NCBI RefSeq assembly: GCF_018555385.1
Contig: NZ_JAFEJS010000004.1
Location: forward strand, 1 to 64,000
Reading direction: 5' to 3'
Source of the DNA: Bifidobacterium santillanense
Lineage (GTDB): Bacteria > Actinomycetota > Actinomycetes > Actinomycetales > Bifidobacteriaceae
Length of the DNA stretch: 64,000 nt
Shown piece after piece: positions 32,898 to 34,500 of the stretch (position 1 is its first letter; each line of letters opens with the position of its first letter). Position numbers and translations under genes: made by a program. A model generated the notes under the pieces. The model saw only the letters and a list, made by a program, of their open reading frames with translations. It searched no databases and had not been told where the DNA came from.

Positions 32898-33278
32898 CCG
32901 TCGTCTCCTTGTCGATTCCGTCCCGCCACCGGCCGTCCGTCGCCGGTCGCGCACCGATACATGGCCCATTACTACCACGCGCGTCGCCCATACGCCCCGC
33001 GGCATGCGATCTTCGTTCCGTCCGCCGAAGGCGAAACCATCCGCCGCCGAGGCCGCAGGACCGGACTGCCCCGCACGGTTCGGCACCCGCACGGCTTGTC
33101 TCCTCCCGAATCCGCCCTCGGGCCCCGGAGCGACACGCCGGGTCGACCGCACGCGGGCGCGCGGCGGTGCGGGCCCCCGAGAACGGCGGAATACCGGGCC
33201 TTCCGCAACCCTCCACGTCGCCCGTCGGACACGCGGACGGTGGCCCGCCCGCGGCCCGGGCAATATCCGCGTGCTACT
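32898..33278. other. Gene-free stretch upstream of LacI
   Basis: About 380 bases with no open frame showing coding character and no recognised RNA. Only the leader of the LacI gene can be placed here. Confidence 0.5.
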
Positions 33279-33320
33279 ATCGAACCGGTTCGATGCACGT
33301 CGGATCAAAATCGGTTTCAG
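33279..33320. promoter_or_regulatory. Two LacI-type operators
   Basis: 33279-33294 is a perfect 16-bp palindrome, ATCGAACCGGTTCGAT. 33307-33320 is AAAATCGGTTTCAG, close to the canonical GAAAnCGnTTTC box. They are 163-178 and 137-150 bases upstream of the first small-protein gene and may allow looping with the site at 33384. Confidence 0.6.
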
Positions 33321-33355
33321 ACCGAGGGAAGAAACGCCGAACGCGTGATTTCCTC

Positions 33356-33397
33356 TTGCGCACGTCACTCATGCGCGTTACTATGAAATCGGTTTCA
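33356..33397 (+). promoter_or_regulatory. Promoter with overlapping LacI operator for the small-protein genes
   Basis: A -35-like TTGCGC (33356-33361), a 17-nt spacer and a -10-like TACTAT (33379-33384), immediately followed by the operator TGAAATCGGTTTCA (33384-33397), which would cover the transcription start. This is a textbook repressible arrangement. Confidence 0.6.
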
Positions 33398-33456
33398 GAA
33401 AGAAGCCAAGATAACAAATCGAAGTCGCAAGGCTTTGAGCAACGAAAGGACATACC

Positions 33457-33591
33457 ATGTCGTTCAAGGATTCCATGCTGCGCGGTCTCGCTATGTACGG
33501 TGCCAGCTCGATGGCCAAGAGCGGTTACGCCAACTCCAAGGTGATGCTCGACATCATCAACGACGCTCGTTCCGACGAGTCCGCCCGCTGA
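33457..33591 (+). CDS. Small protein, 44 residues, first of a tandem pair
   Basis: Encodes a 44-residue protein starting MSFKDSMLRGLAMYG and ending DARSDESAR. Start ATG 33457 has GAAAGGA eight bases upstream. It shares MSFKDSM-x-RGLAMYG, then A-x-x-GYANSKVM-x-DIINDA with the gene 145 bases downstream. The N-terminal half can form an amphipathic helix with four Met. I do not recognise a named family. Codon choice is strongly C-ending, like highly expressed genes. The promoter is LacI-controlled. A hairpin (33604-33636) after the stop may set its mRNA 3' end. Confidence 0.8.
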   Translation: MSFKDSMLRGLAMYGASSMAKSGYANSKVMLDIINDARSDESAR

Positions 33592-33603
33592 ATTTGACTC
33601 TTC

Positions 33604-33636
33604 GCGGGGTCGATGGAGCGTAGCGCTCTCCCCCGC
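33604..33636 (+). terminator. Hairpin after the first small-protein gene
   Basis: Outer stem GCGGGG/CCCCGC and inner stem GAGCG/CGCTC. It has no T run, so it may be an attenuator or stability element rather than a full terminator. Confidence 0.4.
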
Positions 33637-33735
33637 CGACTGAGGGACGCGGCCCGACGAATCGCCGCTCCCACCCGATAATCCAACACAACAAACGTCG
33701 ACGGGCACGCCCGTCATACCGAAAGGAAGTTCATT

Positions 33736-33864
33736 ATGTCGTTCAAGGATTCCATGATGCGCGGTCTGGCCATGTACGGTGTCAACGCGATGGCTCAGAA
33801 CGGTTACGCCAACTCCAAGGTGATGGCCGACATCATCAACGACGCCGACAAGCTCACCCGCTGA
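33736..33864 (+). CDS. Small protein, 42 residues, second of a tandem pair
   Basis: Encodes a 42-residue protein starting MSFKDSMMRGLAMYG and ending NDADKLTR. Start ATG 33736 has GAAAGGAAG nearby. It is about 70% identical to the first copy, and DNA identity is high in the first 45 bases (MSFKDSM...AMYG) and in the GYANSKVM block, while the tail differs. The pair is therefore a tandem duplication under selection at the protein level. The strong terminator at 33909 closes the unit. Function unknown; a small regulator or peptide signal is possible. Confidence 0.8.
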   Translation: MSFKDSMMRGLAMYGVNAMAQNGYANSKVMADIINDADKLTR

Positions 33865-33908
33865 ACGATCGGATGAGTCACACTCACCGATCTCGGCATC
33901 TGCATCGC

Positions 33909-33947
33909 ACGGTACTTCGCGGATAACCTCCGCGGGGTCCCGTTTTT
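33909..33947 (+). terminator. Intrinsic terminator of the small-protein unit
   Basis: Long stem (ACGG..ACTTCGCGGA with TCCGCGGGGT..CCGT, two G-T pairs) around TAACC, followed by TTTTC. Confidence 0.8.
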
Positions 33948-34033
33948 CGTTGCCTCACGGCTCATCCGCAACGGCATCCCGATTTTCCCGCGAGCACCGC
34001 ACCCCCTTCGCCATCGCCGCTCATGTACCGTGA

Positions 34034-34246
34034 GCGGCCGTGCGCACCTATGCGCCCGGCATCCTCGGCATGGACGTGGAGCTGCCGGCGACCGACGAGT
34101 ACGTGGCGATCGGCGCGGCCCGTCAGGCGGCCTGGGTGCTCTCCGGCGAGGCGGAGCCGCCGGCGTGGCCCCTCGTCATCGAGGAGACGCTGACCGGCGA
34201 TCCGACCCCGGAGGTCTACGAGCAGTACCGCCGATACCGGGGCTGA
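34034..34246 (+). pseudogene. xylB: 3' remnant of a xylulokinase gene
   Basis: About 70 codons ending at a TGA. The translation VRTYAPGILGMDVELPATDE followed by YVAIGAARQAAWVLSGEAEP matches the C-terminal end of xylulokinases (the ...EYVALGAARQAAW... block). There is a stop directly upstream (34031) and no N-terminal part, so the gene is a truncated relic. It lies beside a xylA-like remnant and a ROK regulator, indicating a lost xylose locus. Confidence 0.75.
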
Positions 34247-34261
34247 CGTTCCAACATCACC

Positions 34262-34318
34262 ATGGGCGTACGTTCCCCGTGGCCACGGACGATGAGGCCA
34301 CGGGGAACGTACGCCCAT
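34262..34318. repeat. Inverted repeat, 23-bp perfect arms
   Basis: Arms 34262-34284 and 34296-34318 with an 11-nt loop. The arm core GGCCACGGGGAACGTACGC recurs a third time at 34482-34500. It has no T run and does not look like a normal terminator. Confidence 0.8.
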
Positions 34319-34356
34319 TCGTTGTCACAGTACGGTTTCCGTGGTTTGAACGGACC

Positions 34357-34409
34357 AACCCCCGGTTTTCGTATGCTGGGTGCCGGTCAGCATACGAAAA
34401 CCGGGGGTT
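34357..34409. repeat. Inverted repeat, 22-bp perfect arms
   Basis: Arms 34357-34378 and 34388-34409 with a 9-nt loop; the arm contains AACCCCCGGTTTTCGTATGC. It is unrelated in sequence to the repeat at 34262. Confidence 0.8.
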
Positions 34410-34429
34410 CGACGAGGATGGCCACCGGC

Positions 34430-34500
34430 GACGTACGCCAGGACGGGCCCGGCGTACGGAATATGGGGTCTGTGCCATGGAGGCCACGGGGAACGTACGC
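34430..34500. repeat. Third palindromic segment with a copy of the 34262 arm
   Basis: A CGTACGCC/GGCGTACG inverted repeat near 34431-34458 is followed by GGCCACGGGGAACGTACGC at 34482-34500. With the two elements before it, this makes a 240-bp palindrome-rich stretch; 34247-34629 holds no gene. Confidence 0.6.

Follow-up and report, generated by a model that had tools for sequence, protein, structure and literature searches.

A family of unnamed small proteins in Bifidobacterium with an apparently dedicated LacI-family repressor

In the gut, bifidobacteria are among the major users of carbohydrates, and descriptions of how they regulate sugar use deal mainly with transcription factors that act on catabolic genes. 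In the bifidobacterial LacI regulons, including that of AraQ, as far as they are set out in the two reconstructions considered here, a LacI-family regulator acts through a palindromic operator and the regulon is mostly local (PMC4746261, PMC6882875). Two small proteins from other bacteria offer a further point of comparison. SgrT of Escherichia coli (43 aa) is described as being encoded in the SgrS RNA, targeting the linker of EIICB-Glc and down-regulating PtsG glucose transport (PMC3901232). VcdP, the 29-aa protein of VcdRP in Vibrio cholerae, is described as binding citrate synthase, being repressed by CRP and being encoded on a base-pairing RNA (PMC8672173).

The locus examined here lies in the window, by which we mean the whole stretch of 64,000 nucleotides of Bifidobacterium santillanense DNA that was analyzed, and consists of two tandem genes for small proteins, which we call type A, next to a divergent LacI gene (Table 1). 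The pair resembles SgrT in size, in a sugar-linked control and in a proposed action on carbohydrate handling, but SgrT lies within the SgrS RNA, whereas the genes in the window stand in tandem under a putative LacI control; no sequence relation was found, and the window genes were without a match in Pfam, NCBIfam or Rfam that would place them with SgrT. VcdP provides the mechanism proposed here, that of a carbon-regulated microprotein with a metabolic partner, but it is CRP-repressed and carried on a base-pairing RNA, whereas the window pair would be under LacI. We take SgrT and VcdP as working analogues and claim membership in neither. The window repressor has in common with the bifidobacterial LacI regulons a LacI-family regulator, a palindromic operator and a mostly local regulon; in contrast to those regulons, which in the cited accounts control catabolic and central-metabolism genes, it seemingly controls microprotein genes only.

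Table 1. Features of the small-protein locus in the window
Feature	Position	Strand	Basis
Divergent LacI-family repressor, 345 aa	31860..32897	-	Pfam; ortholog in all 23 type A genomes and in none of the other 89
Second palindrome TCGAACCGGTTCGA, 104 bp upstream of operator	33280..33293	.	Palindrome scan
Third, weaker site CAAAATCGGTTTCA with 3 mismatches; L039 and L040 alone have a similar one	33306..33319	.	Alignment, by eye
Conserved box GAAACGCCGA, upstream of -35	33331..33340	+	Alignment
Promoter: TTGCGC (33356-33361), 17 nt, TACTAT (33379-33384)	33356..33384	+	20/20 aligned units keep CTTG, TA.T.T
Operator TGAAATCGGTTTCA, one mismatch to TGAAACCGGTTTCA	33384..33397	.	Palindrome scan, alignment
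Leader hairpin of gene 1, 8 pairs, loop GCAA	33419..33438	+	Folding, stem search
Small protein gene 1, 44 aa, type A	33457..33591	+	ORF list, homologue search
Hairpin before gene 2 ribosome-binding site, GACGGG-CACG-CCCGTC	33700..33715	+	Folding, stem search
Small protein gene 2, 42 aa, type A	33736..33864	+	ORF list, homologue search
Intrinsic terminator, stem 33914-33938 plus T run	33914..33948	+	Terminator scan

An earlier note, made from the letters of this DNA, had described the two genes as tandem paralogs of 44 and 42 residues, and the coordinates, the ATG starts, the ribosome-binding sites (of GAAAGGA type for both genes) and the shared motifs that it quoted were all confirmed. The two genes are 89% identical in DNA over their first 37 codons, with eight nonsynonymous and four synonymous differences. 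The DNA between them had been called unrelated, which nearly holds for the sequence, as the -100 to -19 segments of the two genes share 55% aligned identity against 48 +/- 2.8% for shuffled sequences and are thus nearly unrelated; a hairpin is still present before the gene 2 ribosome-binding site, however. The same note regarded the genes as missed by gene calling, and this was only partly right, since several relatives are carried by NCBI as hypothetical proteins. Both open reading frames are almost certainly real protein genes, and they would encode small cytoplasmic proteins of a still unnamed family.

With the 42-aa protein as query, type A relatives were recovered from 23 of 112 genomes of the genus, with best E values per genome between 2e-23 and 7e-11; the next genome reached only 0.0135. 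A profile search added all nine genomes of a sister genus (G152-G160), with up to eight matches each, so that homologues with the same length and start are conserved beyond this strain in both genera. A named scan returned 31 loci, every one of them with a Bifidobacterium title, and the hosts include B. rousetti, B. callitrichos, B. aesculapii, B. stellenboschense, B. tissieri and B. vansinderenii. This spread over the genus and the sister genus led us to reject chance open reading frames or a single-strain artefact. A wider actinobacterial family was likewise rejected: among 396 genomes sampled across the phylum, a sample that rare relatives could escape, the source genome itself gave the one match.

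Selection was assessed in a subset of all hits, comprising 86 copies in 40 stretches (39 fetched plus the window) with 76 distinct proteins. Among these, 251 pairs had the same length and at least 60% identity, and three that were identical in DNA were set aside. The comparison of synonymous and nonsynonymous changes, which the earlier note had named as a check, came out on the side of protein genes, with pS exceeding pN in 223 of the 248 remaining, non-independent pairs; pS was not above pN in the other 25, and a few close pairs differ by nonsynonymous changes only. Eight pairs with identical proteins, again non-independent, carry 26 synonymous changes between them. Over 238 pairs, which are non-independent and partly distant, dN/dS has a median of 0.48. 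At the level of codon comparisons, these data show purifying selection on the type A proteins.

The type A proteins share a basic C-terminal residue: 73 of the 76 distinct proteins end in Arg and the other three in Lys, whereas Arg is the last residue in 15.6% of 416 longer proteins used for comparison. NNY codons end in C in 88% of cases, against 78% in neighbouring genes. An AlphaFold model built with 40 sequences consists of one low-confidence helix (pLDDT 67.7, pTM 0.26), and the C-terminal half is mildly amphipathic by its hydrophobic moment (z 1.56). An N-terminal amphipathic helix was considered and is unsupported, with a z of -0.09 for that half. These features bear on the idea that the genes encode a membrane-active or extracellular peptide, such as a bacteriocin, signal or surfactant, switched on by a sugar. 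Bacteriocin arrays consist of many diverging copies, as do the type A sets of single genomes, and the proteins are small, helical and carry a mean net charge of +1.4. Their mean hydrophobicity is low (0.12), however, N-terminal amphipathicity is absent, and in the neighbourhood clusters no gene for export, immunity or processing is found repeatedly around the units. A peptide of this kind seems unlikely.

Reference collections returned little for these proteins. At E values up to 1, no match was obtained for both window proteins in Pfam, for seven small proteins in NCBIfam, for six proteins in PADLOC or for the family profile in the PDB, in which there is no solved relative. The best PHROGs values were not significant (0.022 for a type C protein, a further small-protein group discussed below, and 0.36 for gene 1), and phage and plasmid records held no match to the small proteins. 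A phage, plasmid or defence origin was rejected on these grounds. A description of the family was not found in the open-licence PMC literature.

Upstream of the pair, the well-formed repressible promoter claimed in the earlier note was borne out by comparison, since none of the 20 units aligned, out of 24 in the genus, departs from CTTG at -35, TA.T.T at -10 or the operator core. In the window the -10 element abuts the operator; a simple sigma-70 consensus scan of the window unit called no promoter. TGAAACCGGTTTCA is positioned 70-82 nt before the start of the leading gene in 24 of 24 genus units, with one mismatch in the window. The upstream palindrome is found within one mismatch in 17 of the 24 units, 101-104 bp away, and is missing in seven. 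No AraQ-type TGTGAGCGCTCACA site turned up at this unit when the 330 nt in front of each gene were scanned for palindromes. The strong terminator described after gene 2 is present, and each sequence-level element of the proposed single repressible transcription unit beside a LacI gene was confirmed and is conserved across species. Separately, the GAAACGCCGA box is nearly invariant in the 20 aligned units; it is perhaps an activator site.

The repressor contains the LacI helix-turn-helix domain (PF00356) and a sugar-binding-like domain (PF13377). The LacI character and the adjacency asserted for a sugar LacI gene next door are borne out, and the sensing of a sugar may be inferred from its family and neighbours. 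At a cut-off of at least 70% identity, all 23 genus genomes with type A have an ortholog and none of the 89 others does, a co-occurrence with a probability of 2e-24 if genomes were independent, a figure that shared ancestry inflates. Two of the 23 matches (G021, G071) contain an internal TAG. In 19 genomes the gene lies next to the type A unit in divergent orientation; it is 1.8 kb away in G044, 22 kb away in G017, and on a different contig from the type A unit in G059 and G097. The fact that LacI is unlinked or distant in some genomes indicates that more than linkage holds LacI and type A together. Given its complete co-occurrence with type A and an operator that is found almost solely at promoters of small-protein genes, the repressor seems to serve the microproteins specifically and not just to be their neighbour, and it very probably controls the window unit.

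Tight repression, a two-part layout and a patchy distribution are also what a toxin, selfish or defence module would display, in which a small toxic protein is restrained by its repressor. The separation of LacI from the unit in three genomes and the scattering of sister-genus copies without a paired regulator do not fit this module, and neither do the lack of a PADLOC match, of any PHROGs match below E 0.02 and of matches in phage or plasmid records. We consider it highly improbable.

The distribution of operators is informative about the extent of the regulon. In the source genome, the window operator is the sole site with at most one mismatch to TGAAACCGGTTTCA. The 22 other type A genomes contain 27 exact sites, 25 of which precede small-protein genes (23 type A and two type C); one lies inside an aldo/keto reductase gene and one, G016:C27, is ambiguous, with the one frame tried giving no Pfam match. 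Eleven exact sites occur in six genus genomes without type A, where, among the sites inspected, they precede GH43, GH88/SDR and MFS genes among others, and TGAAACCGGTTTCA is therefore not reserved to microproteins genus-wide. Such placements before GH43, MFS and GH88/SDR genes were recorded at L122, L127, L131 and L132 (by Pfam for L122, L127 and L132, by eye for L131). Three of the genomes without type A that have exact sites (G009, G051, G111) encode LacI proteins 53-54% identical to that of the window, which are presumably paralogs with a catabolic job.

In the sister genus, 15 exact CGCCAGCGCTTGCG sites were found in the nine genomes. Thirteen precede type A units, including two that belong to a stretch repeated within a single assembly (G157), and two fall within coding sequence. 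With one mismatch allowed, CGCCAGCGCTTGCG falls to background (59 matches, against 75 for the reversed control). In a scan without a shuffle control, seven other copies lie behind TGAAACCGGTTTCA with at most one mismatch and some copies are without such a site, and three sister-genus copies lie behind TGTGAGCGCTAACA, which is close to TGTGAGCGCTCACA, the AraQ consensus as given in PMC4746261. A further palindrome, CCACGTCGACATGG, recurs upstream of some sister-genus copies (L062, L065, L066, L067).

The leaders of the small-protein genes tend to fold. The 46 nt before the ribosome-binding site are more stable than shuffled sequences, with a mean z of -2.8 in 35 genus copies and -1.7 in all 86, and 24 of the 35 genus copies have a stem of 6-9 pairs ending shortly before the ribosome-binding site. 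The 24 stems kept are those of the leading gene of 23 of the 24 units plus that of gene 2 in the window; 11 that were short, interrupted or mispaired were dropped. In 23 of the 24, the distance from the stem to AAAGG is 6-7 nt, and at least three pair types occur at each of the first eight stem positions. When the stems are registered from the ribosome-binding-site side, 185 of 188 cells are paired, a value without evidential weight because the stems were picked for pairing (one outer pair of L056 was left off). Support for the hairpin thus comes from the range of pair types and from its fixed spacing to the ribosome-binding site, and not from the pairing percentage. RNAalifold predicted no pairs in 18 leaders aligned by MAFFT, owing to stems of differing sequence and loop length that fall out of register in the alignment.

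On this evidence a regulatory or dual-function RNA has to be weighed, i.e., a LacI-controlled hairpin transcript that acts by base pairing, with the open reading frames secondary or a second output. The frequency of the hairpins and the stability of the leaders are in its favour, as is that of the 556-nt transcript region, which folds better than shuffles (z -2.46). Conservation, however, sits in the proteins, and the hairpins conserve shape and not sequence; the stem of gene 2, for example, is unrelated in sequence to that of gene 1. In addition, many sister-genus copies are without a strong hairpin, the gene 1 hairpin is absent from the minimum-energy structure of the whole region, though present in the centroid, and Rfam has no known RNA element in 33200-34050. 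An RNA function of this type appears improbable, and the hairpin may instead protect the mRNA or aid its translation.

The explanation that we favour, plausible but tentative, is that the type A proteins are sugar-induced cytoplasmic microproteins that tune a protein of carbohydrate uptake or central metabolism and have their own LacI repressor. LacI would bind the site at -10/+1 and often a second site about 100 bp upstream, perhaps by looping, and would release the DNA once a carbohydrate or derivative binds. Derepression would yield a short, well-translated mRNA, and the helical proteins of about 40 residues would bind a protein that takes part in carbohydrate uptake or central carbon metabolism and modulate it, in analogy to SgrT acting on PtsG and VcdP on citrate synthase. 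A role of type A as a protein-binding metabolic regulator is a real possibility, still short of a probable one. Through paralogs that stand behind other LacI-type palindromes, further sugar signals may reach an output of the same kind.

Type A units recur near MFS transporters and sugar kinases. A fixed partner gene next door was sought among two neighbours and rejected, as both are enriched without being strict: a DUF6198 gene (at least 66% identity) is present in 12 of 23 type A genomes and 6 of 89 others, and an MFS gene in 7 of 23 and 4 of 89. Neither tracks the family as LacI does, and the partner is therefore probably a widely present protein.

Two further groups of small proteins were observed. 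Type B (MNKNxIFSAIKRGFE...) comprises 19 copies in 17 genomes at an E value of 2e-6 or better, with B. adolescentis and B. dentium among the named hosts, and its profile matches that of type A with an hhalign probability of 71% (E 3.8e-5). The two types are alike in profile, length, basic C-terminus and tandem pairs, which for type B were seen in two loci (L153, L154), but type B has a different N-terminus and different neighbourhoods, in which ROK genes recur. No LacI-type palindrome was noticed by eye at type B loci. Type C was found in four genomes; one copy, at a contig edge (L170), was not used. Its sequence similarity to type A is not significant, and it was rejected as a sequence homologue; the link between them is the same operator in G059 and G097 and, in G158, a place immediately downstream of a type A gene. 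At least one of the three types is present in 44 of 189 family genomes.

Type B is also relevant to the proposal that these are chaperone-like or ribosome- or enzyme-stabilising general-stress proteins, merely tuned by carbon supply. Helical proteins with a basic C-terminus and good expression features would suit such a function, as would the location of type B beside tRNA genes in seven of eight loci (L147-L154: four tRNAs for Gly, Cys, Val and Val in six, one tRNA in L151, none in L153) and near an FHA-domain gene in four (downstream in L148; by eye in L147, L153 and L154). The sugar-type operators and neighbours point to carbohydrate use instead, and we give the stress proposal little credence.

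Together, the data describe a microprotein family that is real but still without a name and has an unusual repressor, apparently dedicated to it, and suggest an unexplored small-protein layer in bifidobacterial carbohydrate handling. A repressor with a microprotein pair as its sole evident output, multicopy paralogs behind several LacI-type palindromes and the relatives in B. adolescentis and B. dentium all point to a post-translational layer, which regulon reconstructions based on annotated genes may have overlooked. A wider reading, which we find rather doubtful, unites A, B and perhaps C in a superfamily of tandemly expanding, C-terminally basic microproteins of about 40 residues that dedicated or shared LacI-type operators would couple to sugar signals. 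On this reading, a transcription factor in the window's group would have the microprotein pair as its sole evident target, and the message "this sugar is present" would be relayed as a diffusible small protein that retunes carbohydrate transport or the bifid shunt after transcription.

Several minor observations complete the description of these loci. In L133, L134, L136 and L137 the type B genes have MFS transporter, dehydrogenase and ROK genes on one or both sides, and a hairpin before the ribosome-binding site was seen by eye in L133 and L134. Type C proteins of 38 aa are encoded directly behind TGAAACCGGTTTCA in L120 (4124-4240) and L121 (4098-4214), with an FGGY carbohydrate kinase next in L120. 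In the window, 34034-34243 is a C-terminal xylulokinase remnant (residues 440-509 of 509), 91% identical to the gene next to the small-protein unit in L040; the remainder of the gene was not found within the window. Between this remnant and a ROK gene, nested long inverted repeats were noticed by eye at 34262-34500.
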